A stretch of DNA of 52,247 nt from Candidatus Nitrosopumilus sp. (GTDB taxonomy: Archaea > Thermoproteota > Nitrososphaeria > Nitrososphaerales > Nitrosopumilaceae). A program made the translations under genes and the position numbers. This document shows positions 29,807 to 46,268 of this stretch, piece by piece (position 1 is the stretch's first letter; each line of letters starts with the position of its first letter). A model generated the notes under the pieces. It worked only from the letters and a program-made list of their open reading frames with translations. It was not told the DNA's origin and ran no database searches. Location of the stretch: assembly GCF_028278985.1 (NCBI RefSeq), contig NZ_JANQTA010000030.1:1-52247 (forward strand), written 5' to 3'.

Positions 29807-29899
29807 CTATAAAGTAACCAACTCACAAAAATTTACTAATTCATCCAAAGTCGAAACATTTCCTTTAAATTGAGATTGAAATTGTTTTTTATCAAGCTC
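29807..29899 (-). pseudogene. Possible 3' gene remnant at the tRNA edge
   Basis: A 31-codon open stretch with protein-like composition (KKQFQSQFKGNVSTLDELVNF) ends in TAG at 29807. Upstream it meets a stop inside the tRNA gene and has no plausible start codon. It may be the tail of a gene cut off when the tRNA region was rearranged. The stretch is short enough to arise by chance. Confidence 0.3.
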
Positions 29900-29970
29900 C
29901 TATAGTGTAGTCCGGTTAAGCATACTGCCCTCTCAAGGCAGTGACTCGGGTTCAAATCCCGATGGGAGCA
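29896..29970 (+). tRNA. tRNA-Glu (anticodon CTC)
   Basis: The acceptor stem GCTCCTA pairs with TGGGAGC (one G-T pair); the D-arm holds GTGTAGTCCGGTTAAGCAT; the anticodon stem CTGCC/GGCAG closes the loop CTCTCAA with anticodon CTC; the T-arm is CGGG-TTCAAAT-CCCG. Discriminator A at 29970, no encoded CCA and no intron. The tyrosine recombinase gene starts 45 nt downstream on the same strand, a typical integration arrangement. Confidence 0.95.
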
Positions 29971-30014: not shown

Positions 30015-31358
30015 ATGTCAAAACAGCAGATTTCCGGCTCAAAGCAGGACAAGATAAAACTCTACAATTATGATAGAATCATCACCAATACTTTTGCCCT
30101 GATGGAAAAAGATCTCAATGAAAATAATTTTAGAATTATCAAGAAGTTTGACAGGGTCCTGGTAAACGAGTCATTATCCGATGCCAGACGCTCTAAGATA
30201 CTTGGAACGCTACTAAGTTTGTCAAGAATGCTCAAAATGAATTGGGATGAAACCACCAAAGAAGACATTGAAGAACTAGTGTACAACTTTAACAAAAAAT
30301 TCAGCAAAGATGGTCAAGAGACAAACACAACTGCAGACCACAAAAAGATTCTCAAGAACTTTTACAGATGGTTAAAGTTTGATTCAAGAGACCAAAAGCA
30401 AGTTGGGGATCCTACAGAAACAAGTTGGATTAGAATCAAGAAACCAAAAGAAAATCTAACTGCAGACATGCTAATTACAGAAGCAGAAAAAAATTCTTTG
30501 CTCAAAGCATGCGGAGAGAATCTCAGGGACAGAGCATTTGTCCACACGTTTTCTGATTTAGCTTGCAGGCCTGGAGAAATATTGAGTCGTCAAATCAAAC
30601 ATGTAAGATTTGATGACAAGGGAGCAGTGATTGTAGTTGATGGAAAAACTGGACCTAGACCAGTCAGAGTAATTGAATGCGTTCCAGATTTGGCATCATA
30701 CTTTGACAAGCATCCAAAAAACGACGATCCTGATGCACCGTTATGGATTGCAATGGATGAGAAAAAGTTCGGAGAGGCTTGGTCTTATCATGCAATGAGG
30801 AAAAGACTGCAAAGAGTTTGCGATGTTGCCGAAGTACACAAGAGAGTATGGCCAAATTTGTTCAGACATACAGGTGCAACAAAAACAGGAATGTTCCTTA
30901 CTGAATCACTGCAAAAGAAGAGATACGGATGGTCTTCAGGCTCTAAAATGCCAGGTCGATATGAACACATGATGAATTCAGACGTAGAAGAGGCAATGCT
31001 CAAACACTATGGAATTTCAACTACCAAAAAAGAGAACTTGGTAAACAAACCAAAAATCTGCCATATTTGTGACCTTCCAAATTCCTACGATTCTAAAATC
31101 TGCTCAAAATGTGGCAAGCCGTTGGACCTCAAAACAGTACTAGAAAATGAAGAAAAAAATGAAGAAGAAAGACAAAGTCTCAAAAAAGAAGTTGACAATC
31201 TAAAGGAGAATATGGATACCATAATTCAGCAAAAAATGGAAGAATACAACAAATCATTCATCAAAGAAATAGAGAAAATCTATGACAAGGAAAACGATGC
31301 ATTGATCAAGCGACTGGATGACATGGATGAAAAGTTCTACAAGAAAAACAAGTCATAA
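30015..31358 (+). CDS. Tyrosine recombinase (integrase) with zinc ribbon and coiled coil
   Basis: A 447-residue site-specific recombinase. Residues 20-140 form the core-binding domain; the catalytic domain shows Arg185 (ACRPGEILS), Lys211 (DGKTGPRP), Arg284-His285 (PNLFRHTGAT), Trp306 and the likely nucleophile Tyr316 (GRYEHMMN). The first His of the usual H-x-x-R is Asn281. A zinc ribbon (C349-x2-C, C363-x2-C) and a long coiled coil follow, an architecture common in thaumarchaeal integrases. Next to tRNA-Glu it marks one end of an integrated element. The gene is intact, so integration has not split it as SSV-type integrases do. Confidence 0.92.
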   Translation: MSKQQISGSKQDKIKLYNYDRIITNTFALMEKDLNENNFRIIKKFDRVLVNESLSDARRSKILGTLLSLSRMLKMNWDETTKEDIEELVYNFNKKFSKDGQETNTTADHKKILKNFYRWLKFDSRDQKQVGDPTETSWIRIKKPKENLTADMLITEAEKNSLLKACGENLRDRAFVHTFSDLACRPGEILSRQIKHVRFDDKGAVIVVDGKTGPRPVRVIECVPDLASYFDKHPKNDDPDAPLWIAMDEKKFGEAWSYHAMRKRLQRVCDVAEVHKRVWPNLFRHTGATKTGMFLTESLQKKRYGWSSGSKMPGRYEHMMNSDVEEAMLKHYGISTTKKENLVNKPKICHICDLPNSYDSKICSKCGKPLDLKTVLENEEKNEEERQSLKKEVDNLKENMDTIIQQKMEEYNKSFIKEIEKIYDKENDALIKRLDDMDEKFYKKNKS

Positions 31359-31375
31359 CATGTGTCATGTTACAC

Positions 31376-31620
31376 GTCGCAAAAATTGGTGATACCAGTT
31401 TCTTGTTTTATCAAAGCATCACTCAAATTATTTCATTTTCTTATTTCCAACTTGTCCAACCAACCCAAAGATATAGGGAAAATGGTTGGTTGGTTGGATT
31501 TTTAGGCACAAAATTAAGCAATTCACAACCCAATTCACAACCAGTTTTTGATAATTTAGGCACGATTTCCAACCCGGTTGTGACCCAAAAAATCATTTTT
31601 TTCTTTGATGTGTATATATA
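31376..31620. repeat. 245-bp structured unit, copy 1
   Basis: Landmarks: a 27-bp block beginning AAATTGGTGATACCAG at 31383; an 11-bp hairpin (TCCAACCAACC 31455-31465 with GGTTGGTTGGA 31488-31498) around a loop with ATATAGGGA; TTAGGCAC at 31502; two direct CACAACC words at 31524 and 31536; a second TTAGGCAC at 31556; and GGTTGTG at 31576 complementary to CACAACC. No convincing protein is encoded. Unit borders are approximate. Confidence 0.8.
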
Positions 31621-31815
31621 CAGACGTAAATTGGTGATACCAGTTTCTTGTTTTCTAAAAAGCACAACTCAAAATGTTCTATTTTCTAAATTCTAACCTA
31701 CTAACTAACCGGCAGAATATAGGGAATTGTGTTAGTTAGTTAGTTTTTAGGCACGAAATTGGGCAAAACCTAACCAAATACCTAACCAATTTTGCCATAT
31801 TCTAGGCGTGAAAAA
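31621..31815. repeat. 245-bp structured unit, copy 2 (truncated at right)
   Basis: Every landmark of copy 1 recurs exactly 245 bp later: the identical 27-bp block at 31628, a hairpin (ACTAACTAAC 31700-31709 with GTTAGTTAGT 31735-31744), the loop ATATAGGGA, TTAGGCAC at 31747, and two direct CCTAACC words at 31769 and 31781. The arms and words differ from copy 1 but changed together. Flanking GGCAAAA/TTTTGCC encloses the words. Its tail runs into the 3' end of the cupredoxin gene. Confidence 0.8.
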
Positions 31816-31845
31816 TAACCTGTTATTGTCTAAATTCTGGTGATT

Positions 31846-32616
31846 TCAAGAGCTGAATTTCAAAAACAAATCATTTAGAACTGCAAGCTGCTCCATTGCA
31901 AGTGCCCTAAGTGATTTTATTTCATCTTTTAGCTCTGCAATGTGATCTTTTTGTTCAGAAATTGTCTGTCTCATACTGTTTGATTCGGATTCCAGCTCAT
32001 CATACATGATTCTTAATTGTCCCTTGTCCAATGCCAGCATTTCGGCACGTGTTTTTTCAGTCTCTAATTGTGACTTTAGATTTTCAACCTCGTAATTCAG
32101 TGTAGTTATTCTGTTGCTAAGTACAACGTTGATTCTGGAATCCTCATCATAACCGTTGTTATTTTGTGCCGGATTGTTTCCATTAGAATTTGGTGGGGTG
32201 TATCTGTCCTTGTTTTCTGGTTCATCTGGAAGCTCAAAGACAACTATGTTTCCTTCCATCCAAGGATGGAGAATACAGAAATAATCATAGCTTCCTACAC
32301 TGGTAAATCTGAAAGAATAATCATAGCTTCCCATTATCAGTCCTGAATCAAACACACCGTCCGGACCATCTGTCGGATTTCCACTTGTAACTGAATGTGC
32401 AGCAGCGTCCTTGTTAATCCACTTTACAGTGCTTCCTTGTTGAACAAGGACTCCTGATGGATCGTAACAGCTGTTGCTTGTCTCGCAACCTGGTGCGGCA
32501 GTTCCAGAAGGTATTGAGATTGTAACAGTTTCTGCAAATGCTTCTTGAAGTGTTATTGAAAACATGGTTCCAAAAAGTAATGAAAATGTAATGGCTACCA
32601 TAATTGTATTATGCAT
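31846..32616 (-). CDS. Secreted cupredoxin (plastocyanin-like) with C-terminal coiled coil
   Basis: From the ATG at 32616: signal peptide (TIMVAITFSLLFGTMFSITLQ, cleavage near EAFA), then one blue-copper domain with ligands His74 (AAHSV), Cys114, His117 and Met120 (YFCILHPWMEG), a linker rich in Asn/Pro, and an 80-residue coiled coil ending the protein. It would carry electrons outside the membrane, in line with copper-based respiration in ammonia oxidisers. The frame is open upstream to 32721 but that extension has no sense before a signal peptide. It is divergent from the ribbon-helix-helix gene. Confidence 0.9.
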   Translation of the reverse strand: MHNTIMVAITFSLLFGTMFSITLQEAFAETVTISIPSGTAAPGCETSNSCYDPSGVLVQQGSTVKWINKDAAAHSVTSGNPTDGPDGVFDSGLIMGSYDYSFRFTSVGSYDYFCILHPWMEGNIVVFELPDEPENKDRYTPPNSNGNNPAQNNNGYDEDSRINVVLSNRITTLNYEVENLKSQLETEKTRAEMLALDKGQLRIMYDELESESNSMRQTISEQKDHIAELKDEIKSLRALAMEQLAVLNDLFLKFSS

Positions 32617-32711
32617 ATGTTGAATTAGACAGTTCAATAGATTATAAAGTATTCTATTATATTCTACTAGAATACCTTGGTTATGTGTTACAAAGTATGC
32701 CGTTATCATAT

Positions 32712-32855
32712 ATGAAGACAAAGACTACTGTATCTATAGACATAGAAGTCTACAAGTGGATTGAATCTATGGTCAAGCGTGGAAGATTTGCGACAATAAG
32801 TCATGGTATTGAATATTGTGCAAGAATAGTCAAAGAACAAAAATTGATCAATTGA
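32712..32855 (+). CDS. Ribbon-helix-helix (CopG-like) DNA-binding protein (47 aa)
   Basis: The ATG at 32712 starts MKTKTTVSIDIEVYKWIES, a short N-terminal strand followed by two helices, and continues MVKRGRFATISHGIEYCARIVKE. This is the ribbon-helix-helix pattern of small repressors (basic strand TKTTVSI, turn GRFAT, helix 2 SHGIEYCARI). The longer open frame from 32604 overlaps the cupredoxin signal region on the other strand and is unlikely. It probably regulates itself, the cupredoxin or the integrated element. Confidence 0.8.
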   Translation: MKTKTTVSIDIEVYKWIESMVKRGRFATISHGIEYCARIVKEQKLIN

Positions 32856-36085: not shown

Positions 36086-37411
36086 TTAACTTATGTATGG
36101 CAACATACGTTTGAAATTAGAAAGTTCAGACAAGGATAATTTTTCAATTGCCAACTCTATTTTTTGATCAAGAACAAATTTGTTAACATCTTCCAACATT
36201 CTACTTACTACAAGCATGTAATGCATTCTACGTAATACATTCCATTCATCTTTAGAAGGAATTGAAGTAATGCCACGACATATTTCGCAACTACATTTCA
36301 ATCCACCGTTAGCGAACATTATTTTTACATCACGCCATGGTAATACGACTAAATGTTTAGGACTAAAAAATCCCCCATACCCTTCACTATCTGGTGAAAA
36401 TCCACCACCGTCTTTATCCAATGCTCTTAAACTTGTAGAAACAAAATCAAAGCCTCCTGTGATGGCAGGATACATTTGATATCCTGCTTCAAGTAACATG
36501 AAAACTTTTTCCTCATCATTTTGTTTTACTACATTAACTGCTTCCAATATTTTCTTGAACATTCGCCTCTGGTAGACATAGGTAACTTTGTCTAATTCTA
36601 AATTTTTAATTTTTAACACGATGAACTTGGAATCCACAGATTTCAAATAATCTATCAAAAGGTCGACTAGTGCCTCACTTTTTAGCCATTGAGGAGTAAG
36701 AACCACATATGTAGCACAATTTTCTCCTACCCATACTGCTTGTGCTATTTTATTGATTTGTTTTGTAACCTCTAATAGTTCTGGACTGTACACAGCAGGT
36801 ACTGGAGGCAATCCAATATCTGCACGCATGGAGTTTTGTAAGTCAAGAATTTTTGTAACTACATCAGATAATTTTCTCTTATCTTTTGCTAATCCTAACC
36901 AAAATTTCTCATATTCAATTTTTTCTTTTACATAACCTTCTGATTTTGTTAGTTCGCCTTTTTCCACTTTTGTTACAATGGCAAGTATTCGTTTTGCTAG
37001 TTTACGAACTTCTATTGGCGTGTCTTTGTTAGTAGAAAGAATTTTTCTGTATTGAGAGTACCATGTGTACTCCATACAAGGATCAATTAGAATCGGAGTT
37101 GTTTCAATAACATCTTTTTCAAAATCATAAGCAAGTTTTCCATCTAATGTTGTTTGATAGATGGATTGCAATAATGGCTTTAGTGTATTATGAAGTTCAA
37201 ACATTCTAAACGTCATCATCCTAGCATGAGTTGATTCAGAAGGATGTTGTTTTAAATTATCAAAATAAGGAATGAAGTCGTAATCATAACTTGTTATTAA
37301 TGGTGCTAATGTATGAAATGGTACTCTTTTGTTGCCAACTCTTAGAAAACCATTTCTAGTGCATCTATCCCATTTTGGCTCTTCAACATTTAGTGGTTTG
37401 TTACTGATCAC
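36086..37411 (-). CDS. TGT-superfamily-like protein (possible DpdA-type)
   Basis: The 441-residue protein is not an obvious family member, but its C-terminal part reads like tRNA-guanine transglycosylase: GGFDFVSTSLRAL (Asp322 at the place of the nucleophile), then CSCEIC (Cys373, 375, 378) and, 18 residues on, RRMHYMLVVSRMLEDV with His397, mirroring the TGT zinc site C-x-C-x2-C..H followed by H-N-hydrophobic helix. Upstream strands (KFIVLKI, KVFMLLEAG) fit a TIM barrel. DpdA proteins, TGT paralogues that put 7-deazaguanines into DNA, have this layout. The GTG start overlaps the winged-helix gene (GTGA). Similarity is by eye only. Confidence 0.45.
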   Translation of the reverse strand: MISNKPLNVEEPKWDRCTRNGFLRVGNKRVPFHTLAPLITSYDYDFIPYFDNLKQHPSESTHARMMTFRMFELHNTLKPLLQSIYQTTLDGKLAYDFEKDVIETTPILIDPCMEYTWYSQYRKILSTNKDTPIEVRKLAKRILAIVTKVEKGELTKSEGYVKEKIEYEKFWLGLAKDKRKLSDVVTKILDLQNSMRADIGLPPVPAVYSPELLEVTKQINKIAQAVWVGENCATYVVLTPQWLKSEALVDLLIDYLKSVDSKFIVLKIKNLELDKVTYVYQRRMFKKILEAVNVVKQNDEEKVFMLLEAGYQMYPAITGGFDFVSTSLRALDKDGGGFSPDSEGYGGFFSPKHLVVLPWRDVKIMFANGGLKCSCEICRGITSIPSKDEWNVLRRMHYMLVVSRMLEDVNKFVLDQKIELAIEKLSLSELSNFKRMLPYIS

Positions 37412-37920
37412 TTGTCTACCACTCTTGCTCCATATGCGTGTAACTCAGTAATAAAGGATTGTAGATCAACAAAGTTTATCGTTACAGCACCTTTTACAGT
37501 AGGATTGTTGTATTCATCTTCAATTTTTTGTTGAATACATATTGATTTTTCATCCCCATTATCTAATACAAAAAATGAGTATGTACTTTCGTTGTTTTTT
37601 GATTTCATTTCTTCTTTTTGTTTAATTGAACCTGTGCGTTTGTAAAATGCAATTTGCATTCGTCCTAGTTGCCTACTCTCTTTGAATACTTGCTGAGTAG
37701 ATACCAATGCATCTAGGTGTTTGGTAATTGTAGGTCTTGCAAGACCGGTTTTCTCGATGATTTCAGATAATGCGTAATCTTTTTTTTCATCTAATGTATT
37801 CAAAATCAAATTTTGAACATATCTGCCACGCTCTCTAGGGCGCAATCCTTTCAATTCCTCATTAGTAAGGAGGGATGTAGTTACGTTTTTTCGCATGTTT
37901 TTACCAACCATGTATAACAT
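37408..37920 (-). CDS. Winged-helix transcriptional regulator
   Basis: About 170 residues (a Met at residue 4 is an alternative start). The winged helix spans about residues 30-95: GRYVQNLILNTLDEKKDYALSEIIEKTGLARPTITKHLDALVSTQQV, with the recognition helix ARPTITKHLDAL and a wing before FYKRTG. The C-terminal half is a small alpha/beta domain (ESTYSFFVLDNGDEKSICIQQ). It overlaps the TGT-like gene by 4 bp, so it probably controls that unit. GTATAACAT occurs at its start (37912) and again at 37975. Confidence 0.8.
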   Translation of the reverse strand: MLYMVGKNMRKNVTTSLLTNEELKGLRPRERGRYVQNLILNTLDEKKDYALSEIIEKTGLARPTITKHLDALVSTQQVFKESRQLGRMQIAFYKRTGSIKQKEEMKSKNNESTYSFFVLDNGDEKSICIQQKIEDEYNNPTVKGAVTINFVDLQSFITELHAYGARVVDK

Positions 37921-38253
37921 ATATGTATTACTACCTTGTTAATAACCTTGTTTAACATAGTTGTTTTCATGCTAGTATAACATGGATTTTAAAATGGTAG
38001 TAAATCATACATGTTTTCAGGCACGAATTAACAGTTTGGTAGTTTTTGTAATTGCATTGGACTACTTTCCTTTGGTTATCAAAAGAAATTGCAAACCGAA
38101 AAGAAGGATATGATGCAAGTGGGTTGTACCATTGAATTACTTTAGAGATTCGAACCAAAGCAAAAATTCTCCATAAGGGATGTGCTATAGTTGATCAAAG
38201 GAAATCATGCTTAGCGTTGGTTTTCCCTTTTATGTTGAATTTAGACTTGCAAA
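37921..38253. other. Non-coding interval of 333 bp
   Basis: No gene is evident. It holds a second GTATAACAT word (37975-37983), an AACATG..CATGTT inverted repeat directly before TTTCAGGCACGAATT (near 38014; similar to the AGGCAC word in the 245-bp units), and an AATTCTCCATAAGG box at 38166-38178 that recurs at 50485 and 50587. The promoter of the winged-helix gene lies at its left end. Confidence 0.5.
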
Positions 38254-40038
38254 TCAATGCTTAATTTGGATTCGCTTTTTTTCTTTTGTTTCAGTTTCTA
38301 TAACAATTATTTTTCCCGTTATCCATGGGTGTACCATGCAAAAATATTCGACAACACCTGCTTTGTCAAAAACATGTTCAAACTTTTCATTTGGCATAAA
38401 CAATGAACTATCAAAATCTCCATCAGGACCTCCGTCAGGAGTTCCACTTGTAATTGTATGTGCTGCATTGTCATCATTTATCCATTTTACAATGGTTCCT
38501 TTTTCAATGGTTATGATTTCTGGCTCCAAGTATTTTCCATCATGAGGAACAGATGATTTGGGCAAAATTTTCACTGTTTTCTGCGGCTGTTCAAAATTTA
38601 CTTTTGCAGTGGCAATGATATCTAAATTAGATTTTTTGATATTTGCTGGAACACTCCAGTCAACATATTTTGCAAAAATGCTATCTCCTGTAGAAATCTG
38701 AAGGCGATTGTTTCCAGAGATTTTTTTATCTAAAAGAACGACTCCTTCAAAAATACCTGTAGCCTCACTTGTTTCAGACAATTCCACCTCTATTCCTTCT
38801 AAATCTGTATCAGACCAAACTCTAATTTTTACAACATCTATTTTTTCAGGATCCAAGTTCATATCCGGATCAATTACTCTTATTTTTGCAGAAGATGGGG
38901 ATGAATAGTATTCATTATCCCATTCAATTTCACCTATATTGTATCGAATCATTGCAGAACCGGTGTATTTTTCATATTCAGTAATCATTTCTACATTTAA
39001 GATGTCATCTTTATCACATGCTAATTTACCATTTATTGGACCATTTCCTTTCGTAATCCCAATTTTTTTAGGAATTTTTTTGGCATTTTTTGGAAAATTG
39101 TTTTTTAAACTAGTAAGCGTGATGTCACCTGTAAAAATTCCTGAGTCTTTTCCTGTTTCTATCAATTTATAATTCAAAAGCTTTCCTTTTTTTGTAGATA
39201 TGTTTACTTTGCAATCAGGCTTATTTCCAATTACATCAGCTTTATGAGAATCAAAATTAAAATCTGGAGCAACTATTGTAAGACACACTTTATCTGTAGG
39301 AACATACACTCTTTGATCTAATTCAATTGCTGCACCAAAATTAGATGAGAAAATTGAAAGTTTTTCATTTCCACTACTAGATTTGAATTCAATTAAAATT
39401 TCCTCTCCAATAGAAACCGGCAGTTGGCCATTAAATGGACCTGTTCCTTTTGCCTTGTTTTTTACTCTTTTACCTTTTTTCTGTGTGTATAATGGAGTAA
39501 GTTCTAAAACTCCTTGAAATATTCCTGTAGAATCACCTGTTTCACGTAATTTGTAACCCTTGATTATTCCATGACTAGAAGAAAGTGTTAAGAAATGTTC
39601 TGGTTTGTTTCCAATAATCTCAGCTTTCTGATTGTCCTTATCTAAATCAGGAGCAATCACTGTCACAATTACATCCGAACCATTGATGTAAACTGATTTG
39701 TCTGTTTGAATAACCGGTCTACGTTTTGCAATGATTGTAGAGTCAGATGCTTCAAAATTACCATATTTTGCAATTACAGTATAACTATGCCCTAATTTCC
39801 AAACATTTCCTTTCATCCTAACATCGGTTTGGAATAAGTAATCAGGAGGACGCTCTAAATTATGTGTCTTATACGGATTAATGGTTCTAGAAATAATTGA
39901 TTTTTTATTATTATCAATTATATCCATATGGATTGACTCATTTGGAATCAAATCAAATATTCTAAAACGAATATGCATGATGCTATCTAATGGATATACT
40001 GTTCGGTCAAATGACACTGTAATTGGGTTTCCTTTCAA
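38254..40038 (-). CDS. Multi-domain beta-sandwich protein with C-terminal cupredoxin domain
   Basis: A 594-residue protein with three to four repeats of an Ig-like module (VYINGSDVIVTVIAPDLDKDNQKAEI, VYVPTDKVCLTIVAPDFNFDSHKADV, SSAKIRVIDPDMNLDPEKIDV, each followed by ETG.STGIF.G) and a blue-copper domain at the end (AAHTITSG, YFCMVHPWITG). The copper ligands His, Cys, His are present but the axial Met is Ile. Such modules normally occur in secreted thaumarchaeal proteins, yet no signal peptide is seen after the TTG start (TTGA overlap with the cyclase). The true start or export route is uncertain. Confidence 0.8.
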   Translation of the reverse strand: MKGNPITVSFDRTVYPLDSIMHIRFRIFDLIPNESIHMDIIDNNKKSIISRTINPYKTHNLERPPDYLFQTDVRMKGNVWKLGHSYTVIAKYGNFEASDSTIIAKRRPVIQTDKSVYINGSDVIVTVIAPDLDKDNQKAEIIGNKPEHFLTLSSSHGIIKGYKLRETGDSTGIFQGVLELTPLYTQKKGKRVKNKAKGTGPFNGQLPVSIGEEILIEFKSSSGNEKLSIFSSNFGAAIELDQRVYVPTDKVCLTIVAPDFNFDSHKADVIGNKPDCKVNISTKKGKLLNYKLIETGKDSGIFTGDITLTSLKNNFPKNAKKIPKKIGITKGNGPINGKLACDKDDILNVEMITEYEKYTGSAMIRYNIGEIEWDNEYYSSPSSAKIRVIDPDMNLDPEKIDVVKIRVWSDTDLEGIEVELSETSEATGIFEGVVLLDKKISGNNRLQISTGDSIFAKYVDWSVPANIKKSNLDIIATAKVNFEQPQKTVKILPKSSVPHDGKYLEPEIITIEKGTIVKWINDDNAAHTITSGTPDGGPDGDFDSSLFMPNEKFEHVFDKAGVVEYFCMVHPWITGKIIVIETETKEKKRIQIKH

Positions 40039-40757
40039 TTCTTTTTCCTCTTCCTTTTTGAAGATAGTGATAATTTAGTTTGTTTGTTTTGTTTCAATAA
40101 CTCTAATAATTTTTTTGGATTTATTTCATCTTTCTTTAATCCTTCAAAAATAACACGGCCAGATTCTTCTTGAATTGGTTTCTCTGTGAATTTTGAGTTG
40201 TCATTATTTCCAAAACACTCCCCATAAGCAGAATAGACTGGTATGATTTCTTCATGTTTAATTTCGATATTTCCAATATAGTGAATGTTCTGTTTGTATT
40301 CATCAGATATTTCTATGAGTTCTTGTGCTGTATTAGCACTAAGTAAAATATGAGATGCGTCTCCGGCACTCATAATTCTTTGAGCATGAATAAGACCTCG
40401 CCCCCAATAATTTCCCTGTCCCTTAACTCCTCTGGTTTTTGAAATTAACCCTGAGTTAATTCCTATTCGGACCAAAATTTTTTCTTTTTTGGGTTTATTT
40501 TTATTAAAACGATTTAATTTTTTATGGAGATCAATTGACAACTCTAACGGTAAACGTGGATTTTCAGTAAAACAAATTGCAACCCCATCTCCTGTATGTG
40601 ATGTAATTGTAGAATTTTTTAGAATTTTACTATTTGTGATATACCTAAACATAGTTTCTAATTTTTTACTTTGTGTCTCAGTAGATCCTAAACTTCTATC
40701 GGACAATGAAACCATGTCTACAAAAAATACATGTACAAAAAGCTCTGTATTTTTCAA
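40035..40757 (-). CDS. Class III nucleotidyl cyclase domain protein
   Basis: A 240-residue soluble protein whose first 170 residues match a class III cyclase domain: metal ligands Asp14 (FFVDMVSLSD) and Asp57 (HTGDGVAICF), the strand VRIGINSG, and NYWGRGLIHAQRIMSAG with the transition-state Arg127; the usual Asn before it is His124. The purine-selecting Lys is not evident, so the product nucleotide cannot be named. No receiver, HAMP or membrane part is present. The C-terminus is a Lys/Arg-rich tail. TTG start overlapping the Mrr-like gene; expression in a nuclease operon suggests Pycsar-like signalling. Confidence 0.8.
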   Translation of the reverse strand: MKNTELFVHVFFVDMVSLSDRSLGSTETQSKKLETMFRYITNSKILKNSTITSHTGDGVAICFTENPRLPLELSIDLHKKLNRFNKNKPKKEKILVRIGINSGLISKTRGVKGQGNYWGRGLIHAQRIMSAGDASHILLSANTAQELIEISDEYKQNIHYIGNIEIKHEEIIPVYSAYGECFGNNDNSKFTEKPIQEESGRVIFEGLKKDEINPKKLLELLKQNKQTKLSLSSKRKRKKN

Positions 40758-41230
40758 ATATTATTATCTCCATTAAAATTCTCTATAAGTTTGATGACAT
40801 CTTTTCTATTCCATAGAACAATTCCTATTTTTGTAGCCAATTCTCGTGCCCCATTTGTGTAAAATGAATTTGTAATTACTATACCAACGTCTGCGTCATA
40901 ATATGCTACTGCACCATGTGCTTCTTGTACTGCACCATTTGACACTTTTCTGTCAATAGAATATCGTTTTGCTTGAAAAACATATTTGGTACCATCTTTT
41001 GTTGCAAGCACATCCCCACCTTGATCACCGCTTTTTCCAGTTACTACTACATCTGAAAATCCATCGCTTTTTAGCAACTCAGCTACAAACTCTTGAAATG
41101 CATTCCCATCTAATCTGTCAGCTTGAAACATGTTCAATTTCTGAATATTTGTTCTTGTTGGATCATTTCTATTTTTAATTTGAGGTTTTGTGATATTTGT
41201 CTTTTCAATTTCTGCATGAATTAACTCCAT
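40754..41230 (-). CDS. Mrr-like restriction endonuclease
   Basis: A 158-residue PD-(D/E)xK nuclease of the Mrr_cat type: an N-terminal helix GNAFQEFVAELLKSDGF, the catalytic core SGDQGGDVLATKDGTKYVFQAKRY with Asp73 and Gln86-x-Lys88, and the later DVGIVITNSFYTNGARELA. Mrr-like enzymes cut modified or foreign DNA. There is no N-terminal winged helix as in classic Mrr, so targeting may come from its operon partners. ATG shares a base with the upstream stop (TAATG). Confidence 0.9.
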   Translation of the reverse strand: MELIHAEIEKTNITKPQIKNRNDPTRTNIQKLNMFQADRLDGNAFQEFVAELLKSDGFSDVVVTGKSGDQGGDVLATKDGTKYVFQAKRYSIDRKVSNGAVQEAHGAVAYYDADVGIVITNSFYTNGARELATKIGIVLWNRKDVIKLIENFNGDNNI

Positions 41231-41442
41231 TAATTTTCTCTTTGGTAATTTTTTTTAATCATCTGATCTTGTACAATTACAATGGCAAAACTTTCTCTAT
41301 ATTCTTCATCATCATATGAAAAATTTTGCATGAAATGTTGAATTACATTAGATAAAGTTCGTGTAGATTCAAAATCAGTCCAAAAATTATTTTCGAGATC
41401 TAGTGCTATTGGAGAATAAGCATCCCCACCAAGATATGCCAA
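41230..41442 (-). CDS. Hypothetical small protein of the SNF2-Mrr operon (70 aa)
   Basis: A 70-residue acidic protein from a TTG directly after the TAG of the Cys-array gene, with a GGAGAT ribosome-binding-like motif. It ends in a stop overlapping the Mrr ATG. The sequence (SPIALDLENNFWTDFESTRTLSNVIQHF) matches nothing I know. Its fixed place in the operon makes it a likely accessory subunit. Confidence 0.6.
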   Translation of the reverse strand: MAYLGGDAYSPIALDLENNFWTDFESTRTLSNVIQHFMQNFSYDDEEYRESFAIVIVQDQMIKKNYQREN

Positions 41443-43200
41443 CTATCTCCATCCTCCTTTTTTATGAACTAGAACCTGTTTTTTGATTTTATCAAACACA
41501 ATTATTTTACTTCCAAATAATTTTTTGACTTTAAACACAGAGAATTTACTGTTTGATGCGCACTCCCATTTCTTTATTTTTTGGAGTTCTTTATAGGATT
41601 GAATAATCTCTTGAACCTCTTGGTGTTCTTTTTCTACTGGTTGCAATTTTCTACATGTGTTGCAAAGTTTTCCACCAACACAACTGCTGTTGTAAGATTG
41701 TTCACATAGATTACATTTTCTGGAATCTTTCAAACAATGATTTTCCCCACAAATTCCACAGATAGTAATATCAGTTGAGCAAAAACGAGATTTACATTCG
41801 ACACATTCAATAGAGTCTGATTGGCATAGACGTTTTTTACATATTTTACAGGCATAAAGAGACTTTTCACAGAATCTTTGGAAACAAATCTGACAGCTAT
41901 CAGAGCAAAAATAACATGTTTTCTCAGAACAATGGGTACACGTAATAAGATGATTCTTGCATGTCAATTCGGTACAAAAATTACATCTTGAGGTACAATC
42001 AGAACAAAGTCCCTCTTGGCACACATAGCATGGATTAAGTTCATCAGCACATGATGCACAAACATCCTTCCCACATTTTACGCAATGAGTTGTACAAAAG
42101 TCACAACTTAGATGAGAATTAACGCAGAGATGAGTCATTTCCATTTGGTTATTACAGACTTCACAAGTCATAATGAAATTTTTTGAAGGATCAACATATT
42201 TTGTATAAATTTGCTTATCTGAAACATTATTTTTAAATTCTAAATTACAATCTGTTACGCTATACGAATACACTTTAGCTGCTACAAGTGCAAAATCCAC
42301 TATTGGGCGGTATCTCTTCTCTATTTGTTCTATCTGAACTGCTTTATCTTTAGTTAATCTTTGAACTAGTTTTCCTAGTTTCTCTTGTTCTTTTACAATT
42401 CTTTCCTCTTGTTTACTTTTTTGTTCTGCGTATTTTACCTGAGTTTCATACGACCGTGCATTCAAAATTTTTCTATCATATTCATGTAATTTATTCCTCT
42501 GTAAACTAACATCTTGATTGTATTCTTTCATTCGTCTTTCATGTGCTTGGAGAACCGAATTGATGTCTCTTGTTTTGTTGTTTTCAGTTAAATCTGCATA
42601 TTTTAGTGCCAGATACTGAATTTCATCATCTAGAAATTCTGTTGCTTTGCTATATGCATAGTCAATTCTAGAATCGTTTTGCTCATATTTTATTTCTCCT
42701 AACGATTCATCAACCATTATTTCCGACGGAAATTCAAGGATCTCAAGTGTCTCTAAATCAACATCGACCCACCTTAGCATAGCAACTCGTTTGATACTCT
42801 TCACGTTAATATTGAAAAAATACCTAACTGCCATTTTGATTTCTTCTTTAGAATCAATACAAGCAATTTCACAATTATGAGTAGGTATTGTGCCTACTTC
42901 TTCTTGTGGATTTTGTACCCGTTTTTGGAGATGTACACCGACCACGGGAGCCTGTTTTCGAATCTGGCTGAGAATAATATCTAAAAAATTACTTCCAGGC
43001 ACAACAAGTTCACATGAATGGGTTTCGGCAATTTCATGATCAAATGTAACTCTCTTGGAGATCGTTCCAAAAATGGATTCAAATTCCTTAGGTATTGTAA
43101 TAGAATACAATCCATGAGATTCTTCTACTTCAGCTCCAATCTTCTGCAGATAATCTAGAGAAAGTTCTTTTGAAAGTTCTAAAATTTCTTTATCGTTCAT
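41443..43200 (-). CDS. Protein with coiled coil and tandem Cys-knuckle array
   Basis: 585 residues in three parts. Residues 1-190 form an alpha/beta domain without known family. Residues about 200-300 form a coiled coil (ALKYADLTENN through KAVQIEQIEKR). Residues 346-516 hold about 37 Cys, arranged in roughly nine or ten CxxC-x4-C modules (CVKCGKDVC, CYVCQEGLC, CTHCSEKTC, CKICKKRLC, CGICGENHC), each likely one zinc knuckle. The short C-terminal tail is basic. The array resembles B-box/treble-clef stacks and may bind DNA or the SNF2 protein encoded 2 bp upstream. The family is unknown to me. Confidence 0.75.
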   Translation of the reverse strand: MNDKEILELSKELSLDYLQKIGAEVEESHGLYSITIPKEFESIFGTISKRVTFDHEIAETHSCELVVPGSNFLDIILSQIRKQAPVVGVHLQKRVQNPQEEVGTIPTHNCEIACIDSKEEIKMAVRYFFNINVKSIKRVAMLRWVDVDLETLEILEFPSEIMVDESLGEIKYEQNDSRIDYAYSKATEFLDDEIQYLALKYADLTENNKTRDINSVLQAHERRMKEYNQDVSLQRNKLHEYDRKILNARSYETQVKYAEQKSKQEERIVKEQEKLGKLVQRLTKDKAVQIEQIEKRYRPIVDFALVAAKVYSYSVTDCNLEFKNNVSDKQIYTKYVDPSKNFIMTCEVCNNQMEMTHLCVNSHLSCDFCTTHCVKCGKDVCASCADELNPCYVCQEGLCSDCTSRCNFCTELTCKNHLITCTHCSEKTCYFCSDSCQICFQRFCEKSLYACKICKKRLCQSDSIECVECKSRFCSTDITICGICGENHCLKDSRKCNLCEQSYNSSCVGGKLCNTCRKLQPVEKEHQEVQEIIQSYKELQKIKKWECASNSKFSVFKVKKLFGSKIIVFDKIKKQVLVHKKGGWR

Positions 43201-43202
43201 TT

Positions 43203-44966
43203 TTATCTACTCGTTGACAAATCAAAATTAGCAAATACTTGATCATCAAAGTCCATAATCGTATCATGCAAGTTTTTTTTGGTGTGAGATAGCCTATCAC
43301 CTAATGCTGAGAACTTGTTTTGTGTATCTTTTCTAGTTGTTGCTGACATGTATGATTCAAAAATTTCTGAAGGAAGTTTTTCAAATCCTTCATCTTCGAA
43401 TAATAAATCAAGATCTCCTATAGTCATTTTAAATAAATTAATTTTGTCAAATAGTAATTTTAGAACATATTCCTCAATACTTCCAATGATTGCTAAATTA
43501 TGAATATGGACATCTTCCTCCTGCCCGATTCTATGAACTCTTCCTACTCTTTGCTCTACTCGCATTGGATTCCATGGCAAATCATAATTGATCACTTTAC
43601 TACAAAATTGAAAATTTTGACCTTCGCCACCAGCTTCTGTTGCAATCATAATTTGAATATCTCGTTTAAATTTACTAACCGCGGTATCTCTTTCCCGTGC
43701 AGACATTGAACCGTTAAATTTTACTGCTTCAATTTCTTCATCATCAAAATAATCAAAAATGTAATCTTGTGTGTCTCTAAATTCTGTAAATATCAGATGT
43801 TTTTCTTCGGGGTTTTCTTTGATTATGTCCCGTAATCTTTGCATTTTAGAATCAACTTTAATTTTGTCAGCCAACTCCAAAATACTCTCAAGTTCATCTA
43901 CATACTGAGGGAATTGCTGTTTTTTGTTCCTAATTGCGCCTCTCAAAGCAGATGTACTGCTTGAAATTTGCCTCTGAAGTGTCATTAGAGGCAGGACAAA
44001 GTTTCTTCCTCCTTTTTGTGCAAGCCATAATTTCCTAACAAATTCTGTTGCATGTTGATACAGTTGACTTTCATATTCAGATGGCTCTAAAAGATGAGTT
44101 CTCGGAATTCTATCTGTAAATTCAATGTATTCTTTTACTTCTTCTCGCGTTGTTCTGATAACTGCTTGTCTTAGAATTTCTTGTAATTCAAATCTTCTTT
44201 GAGGAATAATTTTCTGTGCCTTTTTATCACTTGTAAAACTAGATGCAAAATCTCTCCAAGACCCGAGATATCCTGGTTTGATTATTTCAACTAGGTTGTA
44301 TAGCTCTTCTAAACTATTTTGAATTGGAGTAGCGGATAATAAGAAGATAAATTTTTTCTGTAATTCTCTTACAAACTGATTTGCCTGGGTAGTGGATTTT
44401 TTTAACCTATGAGCCTCATCTACAATTACTACATCCCATTCAATATCTTTTAACAAATTTGCATTTCGTGGTTGAATGGCGGATGATATTGAAGTGATAA
44501 GCATAGTATGTTTATCATATCCTTCAAATCTAGAATCATCTTTGTTAACTATGAAATCAAGTTCAAATTTTGACTTTAGTTCTTCTTGCCATTGACTTCG
44601 TAATGAGGGAGGAGTAAGAATTAATGCATTGCGTATTATTCCAGTTACAAAATATTCTTTTAGTAAAATCCCTGCTTCAACTGTTTTTCCCAAACCCACT
44701 TCGTCGGCTAGGATTACTCTTCCATTAAGATTGTTTTTTACAAGTTTTGCTGCCATGATTTGATGATCAAAAATTGAGATAGTTGAATTTAATGAATTTT
44801 GTATTGTTAGACCGCGAGATTGTTGGGCATTGATTATTTCATATGCCTTTAATAGATTTGACAAATCCTTAGGTCTATCAAAAATTAATTGCCTAAGTTT
44901 GTTTTTTACGCCATAGGTATCAAAATACCTTAACTCAACTCGATTATCACTATTCCAATTTGACAA
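43203..44966 (-). CDS. SNF2-family DNA-dependent ATPase/helicase
   Basis: A 587-residue complete SF2 SNF2/HepA-like motor: motif I DEVGLGKTVEAG (Lys94), Ia LTPPSLRSQWQEEL, II VDEAHRLKK (DEAH at 182-185), III SATPIQNSLEELY, IV HLIFTEFRDTQDYI, V ATEAGGEGQNFQFC, and VI QRVGRVHRIGQ. There is no separate N-terminal domain of HepA. SNF2 motors without a chromatin context in archaea are often part of DNA-defence or modification systems (for example DISARM, Dpd). Starts at a TTG 6 bp after the nuclease-like gene. Confidence 0.92.
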   Translation of the reverse strand: MSNWNSDNRVELRYFDTYGVKNKLRQLIFDRPKDLSNLLKAYEIINAQQSRGLTIQNSLNSTISIFDHQIMAAKLVKNNLNGRVILADEVGLGKTVEAGILLKEYFVTGIIRNALILTPPSLRSQWQEELKSKFELDFIVNKDDSRFEGYDKHTMLITSISSAIQPRNANLLKDIEWDVVIVDEAHRLKKSTTQANQFVRELQKKFIFLLSATPIQNSLEELYNLVEIIKPGYLGSWRDFASSFTSDKKAQKIIPQRRFELQEILRQAVIRTTREEVKEYIEFTDRIPRTHLLEPSEYESQLYQHATEFVRKLWLAQKGGRNFVLPLMTLQRQISSSTSALRGAIRNKKQQFPQYVDELESILELADKIKVDSKMQRLRDIIKENPEEKHLIFTEFRDTQDYIFDYFDDEEIEAVKFNGSMSARERDTAVSKFKRDIQIMIATEAGGEGQNFQFCSKVINYDLPWNPMRVEQRVGRVHRIGQEEDVHIHNLAIIGSIEEYVLKLLFDKINLFKMTIGDLDLLFEDEGFEKLPSEIFESYMSATTRKDTQNKFSALGDRLSHTKKNLHDTIMDFDDQVFANFDLSTSR

Positions 44967-44972
44967 ATTCTA

Positions 44973-46268
44973 TCATGTTTCTGCAATTATTTCCTTGGCA
45001 ACGGTTTCCTTTTGTGTTATACTTTCCACACTTGATTCAATGTCCATGTATGCACGTATGAGTTCATTGCGAAGTTTACTTCGATCTTTCCATAATGTTT
45101 GATGTAAACGAATTTCTTTATCTTGTAATTTACGCATTTTCTCATTCGTTTCATATACGATCTTAATCAGATTTGAGAATTCTGAACTTATCATATAATC
45201 AAAGAGTTTTGCCTCTTTTGCATCCCTATCTTTTGCACCTTTTTTTATCCGTGAAATTTCAATTATGTTGTCTCTGCATCTAGTTACAACTTCAATCAGT
45301 ATCCTTGGATTTACAATAATCATTCCATCTTTGAGTCCATAGATTCCATTTGGAGCATATGATTTTGGAATGTCAGTTGAAACTATGATGACGTATTTTA
45401 TATTACTATTTTCAGCATATTTCTTAGCTTTTTCAATATCTGTAGATTTTACTTTTGTATTTTCTTTATTGTCAAAAGCAATTTGAATATCTAATTTTTT
45501 CTCATTCGATACAATTGTTTGATAAATATCTGCAGTGGAAATGCCTCTTTTCTGGCGATTGAATTTATCATTTGGAAATGCAGCATGTAATTGTTCTAAC
45601 AAATTCAATTCACCTACTTCACCTTTTAGCTCTGACTGAGTTTGAGAAAGTTTGTTTTGTAATTCTTCAGCTTGGTCATTTGCACGTTTTATCTGAATAT
45701 CTTTTTGACGTAGTTCTTTTTCTATTTCCAATAGTTTAATATCATAATCACTTTTTGCTTTTTCATATGCAATCTGATGTGCTTTTTGTTTGATTTTTTC
45801 TAATTTCTTAATCTCTTCATTCTTTTCTTTCATTAAGGCTTTCATTGATTTGTTAAATTGAAGTTCTGCATCTTTATGCTGTTTTTTAATTTGTTTGATC
45901 ATTTCTTCATATTGTTTTTTATTACTACGTCCTGTTTCATCAGATTGTTTTTTTGTTTGTTTTAACATATCTGCATAATGTTGTTTCAGTTTGATTTCTG
46001 ATTGCTTCTTATCTTTTTCTAAATCTGTACGAAGCGTGTTGATTTGAACCTTGTAAAATGTTTGTTGTTCTTTTTTATCATTTTCATGTTTTTTTGTAAT
46101 TTCATCTAATTTCTTGTCAAATTTTTCTTTGTTTTTTTGCTCTTCATTTTTGTATCTTTCTTCAATTTGCTTTTCTAATTTGTTTAATGCCAAATTGTAT
46201 TCTTCAGTTGTAATAGGCCTATTACAAAGTGGACATTGTTGTTCAGAATCAAACTGAGATTTGCTCAT
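44973..46268 (-). CDS. Coiled-coil protein with DUF2130-like nuclease domain
   Basis: A 431-residue protein opening with a CPLC knuckle (Cys12, Cys15), then about 190 residues of heptad-rich, Lys/Glu coiled coil, then a domain GEVGELNLLEQLHAAFPNDKFNRQKRG..ADIYQTIV..LDIQIAFDNKEN resembling the DUF2130 (PF09903) PD-(D/E)xK-like fold, with Asp-based acidic sites and a Lys. A further helix bundle closes it. It resembles DUF2130 proteins linked to defence loci. First gene of the seven-gene operon, with an ATG start. Confidence 0.75.
   Translation of the reverse strand: MSKSQFDSEQQCPLCNRPITTEEYNLALNKLEKQIEERYKNEEQKNKEKFDKKLDEITKKHENDKKEQQTFYKVQINTLRTDLEKDKKQSEIKLKQHYADMLKQTKKQSDETGRSNKKQYEEMIKQIKKQHKDAELQFNKSMKALMKEKNEEIKKLEKIKQKAHQIAYEKAKSDYDIKLLEIEKELRQKDIQIKRANDQAEELQNKLSQTQSELKGEVGELNLLEQLHAAFPNDKFNRQKRGISTADIYQTIVSNEKKLDIQIAFDNKENTKVKSTDIEKAKKYAENSNIKYVIIVSTDIPKSYAPNGIYGLKDGMIIVNPRILIEVVTRCRDNIIEISRIKKGAKDRDAKEAKLFDYMISSEFSNLIKIVYETNEKMRKLQDKEIRLHQTLWKDRSKLRNELIRAYMDIESSVESITQKETVAKEIIAET

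Follow-up and report, generated by a model that had tools for sequence, protein, structure and literature searches.

Non-coding units with private words beside a tyrosine recombinase of Candidatus Nitrosopumilus, and their apparent exchange together with the recombinase tail

Genes and features of the locus

The window, i.e., the whole analysed stretch of 52,247 nucleotides from Candidatus Nitrosopumilus sp., contains a tRNA-Glu gene that forms the left border of an integrated island, followed by a tyrosine recombinase gene and two non-coding units (Table 1). In the genome G139, the tRNA-Glu gene directly adjoins the ortholog of a window gene near 50.73-51.95 kb (82% DNA identity), indicating that the window holds an insertion of about 20.8 kb whose left border carries the recombinase. 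The comparison with G139 showed no attR repeat at the right border of the island, and no 14-mer of the tRNA-Glu region recurred elsewhere in the window. The cargo at 36086-46268 is defence-like, including an SNF2-type helicase (DISARM/BREX-like by PADLOC), an Mrr nuclease (ZorD-like by PADLOC), a DUF2130 protein, and a cyclase domain. In addition, a blue-copper protein with a C-terminal coiled-coil-like tail (31846-32721) faces the units from the other side, and the contig end (52070-52247) carries a perfect hexamer repeat of TCTTCA in 8.8 copies and a 42-bp tandem repeat.

The window recombinase matched PF00589 with an E-value of 1.7e-4 (Pfam, under the curated cut-off) and a PHROG integrase with an E-value of 1.5e-12, and its AlphaFold2 model resembled XerA, lambda Int, and Cre (Foldseek; E 2.4e-10 for XerA). 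The residues R185, K211, R284, H285, W306, and Y316, which we take to be the catalytic residues of a tyrosine recombinase, were invariant or nearly so in 36 homologs, and the protein was assigned to the tyrosine recombinases on both fold and catalytic residues. The model starts with the core-binding domain (helices 19-122), no N-terminal arm-binding domain being present in the predicted fold. The Foldseek matches cover the core-binding and catalytic parts, and the tail is an extra part of the predicted fold, a single predicted helix (372-445) beginning where the homology break described below lies.

Table 1. Features of the recombinase locus in the window
Feature	Position	Strand	Basis or detail
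tRNA-Glu(CTC), left border of integrated island	29896..29970	+	ARAGORN, Rfam
Tyrosine recombinase, 447 aa: core-binding and catalytic domains, zinc ribbon, helical tail	30015..31358	+	Pfam, PHROG, AlphaFold2/Foldseek
Exchangeable C-terminal tail, about residues 371-447	31125..31355	+	Sequence comparison, AlphaFold2 model
Unit 1	31383..31590	+	Sequence comparison, about 200 bp, non-coding
Unit 1, constant block, 27 bp	31383..31409	+	AAATTGGTGATACCAGTTTCTTGTTTT
Unit 1, left arm	31455..31465	+	TCCAACCAACC
Unit 1, right arm	31484..31497	+	GGTTGGTTGGTTGG
Unit 1, core 1	31499..31515	+	TTTTTAGGCACAAAATT
Unit 1, direct words CACAACC, two copies, period 12	31524..31542	+	Word starts 31524, 31536
Unit 1, core 2	31554..31568	+	ATTTAGGCACGATTT
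Unit 2	31628..31820	+	Sequence comparison, about 200 bp, non-coding
Unit 2, constant block, 27 bp	31628..31654	+	AAATTGGTGATACCAGTTTCTTGTTTT
Unit 2, left arm	31700..31709	+	ACTAACTAAC
Unit 2, right arm	31731..31743	+	GTTAGTTAGTTAG
Unit 2, core 1	31744..31760	+	TTTTTAGGCACGAAATT
Unit 2, direct words CCTAACC, two copies, period 12	31769..31787	+	Word starts 31769, 31781
Unit 2, core 2	31803..31810	+	TAGGCGTG

The two units have the same orientation and the same order of parts, namely the 27-bp block, about 45 bp, the left arm, the ATATAGGGA loop, the right arm, core 1 (TTTTTAGGCACRAAATT), two direct words 12 bp apart, and core 2 (AGGCRYG). The repeat comprises 33 nt at 94% and 50 nt at 76% in identical register, which is far beyond chance. 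An earlier note on this DNA, made from the sequence alone, had described two copies at an exact spacing of 245 bp. This spacing was found for the block, which occurs twice in the whole window, and for TTAGGCAC (31502 and 31747, with a third occurrence at 31556 within unit 1), but the loops (31471 and 31717) lie 246 bp apart. Both copies are real units, although the second one runs a few bases beyond the end given in that note (31815), with its second core at 31803. Between the units the block, loop, and cores are kept and the arms and words differ as a set, the words being disjoint; the earlier note had likewise seen arms and words differ around a constant loop. Its claim that arms and words correspond applies closely to unit 2 and more loosely to unit 1, where the arms (CCAACC) and the words (CACAACC) have AACC alone in common.

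Relatives of the unit in Nitrosopumilaceae

Further units were collected by a DNA search of 250 genomes of the family, a sequence-only profile built from seven units, the reading of recombinase flanks, and a second profile run over 350 genomes of the order. The search of other thaumarchaeal genomes suggested in the earlier note thereby yielded a set of 16 units in 13 loci, all within Nitrosopumilaceae: the window (two units), G136:C2 (two, mutually inverted), G154:C4 (two), G024, G114, G122, G173, G097, G150, G091 (Ca. N. salaria BD31), G136:C1, G140:C60, and G123. Ten units were accepted on similarity alone (E <= 4.3e-8), and six (G097, G150, G091, G136:C1, G140:C60, and G123) were partly chosen by eye after sequence reading; a degenerate-looking unit in G095:C23 was left out of the set. 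With the first profile, 169 of the 250 genomes had some match at E <= 0.1, mostly by chance, and reading was confined to the stronger rows of both profile searches. Upon reading, 12 of 17 rows were dropped in one set (a G019 row being treated apart) and 10 of 11 in another, from the order-wide search; among the rows read from the latter (350 genomes), there was no convincing unit outside Nitrosopumilaceae. Viral contigs searched with three patterns gave no match, plasmid and phage records contained only distant integrases, and a search of genome contigs returned 23 matches, of which three were true units in Nitrosopumilus records and 20 looked like chance. The pattern TTTWGGCRYGAAAT was also tried as a unit finder and, albeit clearly commoner than its mirrored control in the 250 genomes, was dropped because nearly all of the 30 loci read were start codons, conserved coding stretches, or unrelated.

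In G019, a multi-copy palindromic MITE-like repeat of about 80 bp (TAGAGTC...CCGTAATTG...CAATTACGG...GACTCTA) was observed on contigs C96, C22, and C134 (L055:6780-7095, L059:1936-2006, and L060:2173-2228, respectively), and its centre, GTTGGTTTTTAGGCACGAAATTTGG, resembles core 1 of the units.

Concerted change of arms and words

For 15 units (G123 was not among them), the complementarity of the right arm to the left arm and to the middle words, as well as the identity of the left arm and the middle words, were compared between own partners and 20000 permuted partners. None of the 20000 permutations reached the own partners in any of the three comparisons; the upstream block, taken as a control, gave an unremarkable result, with 2341 permutations as good. 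With the ten similarity-only units, 1 (arm-arm), 507 (right arm-words), and 5 (left arm-words) of 20000 permutations were as good, and after removal of the two window copies the remaining eight gave 11, 870, and 50, respectively. The stretch beyond core 2 showed mixed results (167, 34, and 4159 of 20000). Only 7 of the 15 units had their own arm partner as the top match of the row, because many words are related A/C-rich strings. The concert of the two arms, and of the left arm with the words, is therefore regarded as firm, and that of the right arm with the middle words as weaker. Thus, the proposal of the earlier note that arms and words change together extends to the other copies, in weaker form also to the eight units free of its choice, and neither a lack of conserved pairing nor arms varying independently of the words, which it had named as adverse outcomes, was seen.

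Replacement of the words is seen most clearly when G091, G136:C1, and G140:C60 are aligned: the block, loop, and cores are nearly invariant, and the words differ (CCACAAA and TTRGACAA versus TTACAAA and AATCAATC) in several copies and complements. The best repeat of the middle region had a period of 12 in eight of the 15 units, 11 in three, and other values in four.

Other words are used by the arrays behind the recombinases of G140:C24, G088, and G093. At G140:C24, two tandem units have common constant parts and disjoint words (CTTACC four times and absent, TTAATGA absent and four times, on the same strand), and both carry AGGCACAAAT-like motifs, so that this second family repeats the rule of shared constants and private words. 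Moreover, the motif RGGCRYRRWW was present 2-4 times in the 1-kb 3' flank of 9 of 88 recombinases (flanks under 300 nt dropped) and once or not at all in the others; eight of these nine flanks have word arrays of different families, and one (L122) is without an evident array. Across 89 recombinases, word arrays, measured as 8-mer self-similarity, stood out (z >= 6) in 12 of the flanks that were 300 nt or longer. Another type of integrase tail was noted at L100, L094, and L097 (G098, G132, and G137), with arrays of AGCTG and TTATAAGACAT words downstream, and at L091 (G199:C17) the integrase is followed by TTTATAATTAATT and AAAGAATCA-like word arrays and AAATAGGCACGATTTC.

Spacing, orientation, and folding

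A TATA-like motif lies 27-32 nt from core 1 in 12 units and 40-41 nt in three, and core 1 is separated from core 2 by 54-56 nt in the ten first-class units with a core 2 found and by 76, 77, and 86 nt in the second class. The differences of about 10, 21, and 31 bp correspond to whole DNA turns, which is suggestive given the small number of classes. In the eight loci where a unit adjoins a recombinase, the two are on the same strand in five and on opposite strands in three (G024, G114, and G154). Complementarity of the left and right arms recurs across units with a varying pairing register, RNA folding of the + strand was only modestly better than in shuffled sequences (z -1.35 and -2.11 for units 1 and 2), and an Rfam search of the window at the gathering score gave tRNA matches alone. 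As the spacings step by DNA turns and the orientation to the integrase varies, a DNA site appears likelier than an RNA.

Linkage of the units to recombinases

In 8 of the 13 loci (window, G136:C2, G024, G114, G154, G091, G136:C1, and G140:C60), less than 250 bp separate a unit from the 3' end of a recombinase gene. The recombinases of these loci match PF00589, those of the window and G114 below the curated cut-off, with the exception of the G136:C2 enzyme, which is homologous to that of G024 (E 4e-18) and to the recombinase profile. About 5 kb upstream of the units of G097, G122, and G173, on the same strand, there is a G024-type recombinase, a truncated one, or an N-terminal remnant; these belong to a second clade that the first recombinase profile missed. 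No recombinase was seen in G150, whose contig ends 0.5 kb past the unit, nor within 9.5 kb in G123. The check proposed in the earlier note, whether each unit stands beside an integrase, thus came out positive at the eight adjacent loci and loosely so at three more, with none in sight at these last two. Since the eight genomes checked had 1 to 11 PF00589 matches each, the closeness of units and recombinases is, judged from these counts, not expected by chance. In an empty-site comparison for a mini-element of integrase plus unit, the neighbour gene of G136:C1 turned out to be accessory, with matches in only 2 other of 60 genomes.

In G122:C96, we observed a recombinase truncated at the start of the tail (L054:5560-5640), at the core-like TTTTAGGCACAAAA, and a full unit 5.6 kb further with the cores in direct orientation.

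Exchange of the recombinase tail

Five recombinases have heads that are 86-89% identical to that of the window enzyme (318-330 of 370 residues) and tails that are essentially unrelated to its tail and partly to each other. Conversely, the G136:C2 recombinase has 57 of 77 tail residues in common with the window enzyme versus 59 of 254 aligned head residues, and further pairs are alike (G140:C24 with G088, G114 with G154 and G140:C60, and G140:C60 with G136:C1). At the DNA level, the homology of the window with G136:C2 runs from 229 nt before the stop codon to 224 nt past it, through the unit, whereas that with G114, G140:C24, and G097:C3 ends 155-188 nt before the stop. Among 250 genomes, the window tail was found only in G136 (75% over 65 aa); a match in G157 (E 0.001) is a broken frame.

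In a survey of 86 recombinases (3655 pairs, kinship ignored), the 3' flank was common in none of 155 pairs with a similar head and a dissimilar tail, in 28 of 61 pairs with similar heads and tails, and in both of the two pairs with a dissimilar head and a similar tail; 20 flank matches were also seen in the 1726 pairs whose heads are least alike, apparently via other shared neighbours. By these patterns, the C-terminal helix is modular and the non-coding array goes with the tail rather than the head; the unit travels with an exchangeable recombinase tail, a point missed in the earlier note. No clean rule linking tail type to words was found by eye: the window and G114 have similar heads and different words, and G140:C60 and G136:C1 have the same tail type and different words.

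Comparison with known systems

The arm-type sites of lambda, P2/HP1, L5, and Tn916 are short words in paired direct repeats within a region of about 200 bp by the integrase gene. The units resemble these sites of bivalent recombinases in their paired direct-repeat words at fixed spacing by an integrase gene. In contrast to a lambda-type attP, the window recombinase lacks an N-terminal arm-binding domain in the predicted model, the units hold no attB-like or tRNA-identical core, and neighbouring units differ in their words rather than using one word per integrase; unlike arm-type sites, they are linked to a C-terminal tail. In shufflons, and in polymorphic toxins with their immunity genes, a constant head takes alternative tails plus a downstream partner. 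The recombinase head similarly takes alternative tails together with a downstream partner, but here the gene concerned encodes the recombinase itself, and the partner is non-coding.

According to the accessible part of PMC9668308, integrons, including archaeal ones, combine a tyrosine recombinase with sites that form hairpins and keep their structure despite variable sequences, and the units are like such attI/attC sites in being hairpin-forming, variable in sequence, and associated with a recombinase. They differ in that RYYYAAC/GTTRRRY boxes 40-160 nt apart were present in 0 of 15 units on either strand (by a box search, as opposed to dedicated attC models) and in that one or two units occur instead of a cassette array. 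As far as the accessible text on thaumarchaeal integrated elements (PMC6563490) and on tyrosine recombinases of archaea (PMC8371274) describes them, such elements have the recombinase at a tRNA gene border, and the window element is of the same class. A description of the units or of a tail-plus-array exchange was not found in the accessible text of the open-licence literature, including these two papers.

Interpretation and alternatives

We tentatively favour, at a little less than an even chance, an exchangeable tail-plus-array module in which the unit would be a protein-binding accessory DNA site of integrative elements that controls recombination. The unit would act in cis as a multi-protein binding array spaced by the DNA helix, its constant cores (AGGCRYRAAAT) being bound by a shared factor and the private word, repeated in both orientations, by a word-specific factor. 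Array and coiled-coil tail would be passed on jointly, as a single exchangeable module, and the adjacent recombinase might engage this accessory, arm-type-like assembly directly via the tail or via a partner, whereby the timing or direction of recombination would be controlled, a role suggested by the place of the units and their linkage. Against this reading, neighbouring units with different words occur at one recombinase (the two window units, G136:C2 A/B, and G154 a/b), more than a single reader would require, and the differing words of G140:C60 and G136:C1 despite the same tail type leave no clean tail-to-word code. Tail and array may also be linked simply by lying side by side, and the two loci with no recombinase in sight and the failure to find attR of the window island count against the reading as well. 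A more specific and rather doubtful version is a lock-and-key arrangement, in which the tail is inherited with an array whose private words serve as its address, so that a swap of both would re-code the control of recombination while the target-choosing head stays, and one element could carry several differently addressed arrays.

Iterated element-specific words are also typical of plasmid iterons and partition sites, and the units could serve the excised element as replication origins or for partition, with an element-specific initiator as the reader of the words and the tail linkage as hitch-hiking. Direct repeats of fixed period, the presence of both orientations, private words as in incompatibility groups, and the different words of integrated elements of one genome (G136:C1 and G136:C2) agree with this; we consider it unlikely, as the neighbouring genes covered by a Pfam scan included none recognisable as an initiator, replication, or partition gene, one element holds two differently worded units at three loci (several word sets per element), and the position at recombinase 3' ends is left unexplained. 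The two orientations and the recombinase neighbourhood also set the units apart from plasmid iteron and partition sites. Quasi-palindromes are substrates of template-switch correction, and neutral homogenisation of the words within each unit, as inverted and direct copies exchange templates by switching, with the cores alone under selection, would account for private words and concerted change without any reader. Such a process is distinctly unlikely to suffice, because the words keep their period and spacing, the cores between them are not converted, and G140:C60 and G136:C1 differ by the swap of two words on an unchanged backbone.

The structured RNA with alternative pairings that the earlier note had offered as an option draws on the complementarity of the right arm to both the left arm and the middle words, including a 16-nt two-word match in G140:C60. 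The DNA-turn spacing, drifting register, varying orientation, weak folding, and lack of an Rfam family all count against it as a first choice, and no transcript data on the units turned up in the literature search, making it very unlikely. Quite unlikely, too, is that the units are recombination sites whose core motif joins segments, including recombinase tails and cargo, somewhat like cassette boundaries. This alternative is kept alive by the truncated G122 recombinase, which ends at the expected tail start on a core-like motif with a complete unit downstream; the exchange of tails and the two G154 units about 1.08 kb apart, which flank a candidate VOC-like gene (named by reading), also fit. 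Nevertheless, it relies on a single breakpoint, a core was not noticed where head and tail of the window recombinase meet, all 15 units are without attC-like boxes, and the words are not explained by it.

Implications for marine ammonia-oxidising archaea

To our knowledge, the control of directionality and specificity in archaeal tyrosine recombinases is poorly known. If the favoured tail-plus-array exchange is true, it would provide naturally occurring pairs, both matched and mismatched, with which accessory DNA recognition could be tested, and a possible route to re-programmable integrases. Furthermore, the units mark integrative elements in abundant marine archaea that gene similarity searches have overlooked, and together with the swapped tails they hint at an unrecognised control system of mobile DNA in marine ammonia-oxidising archaea.
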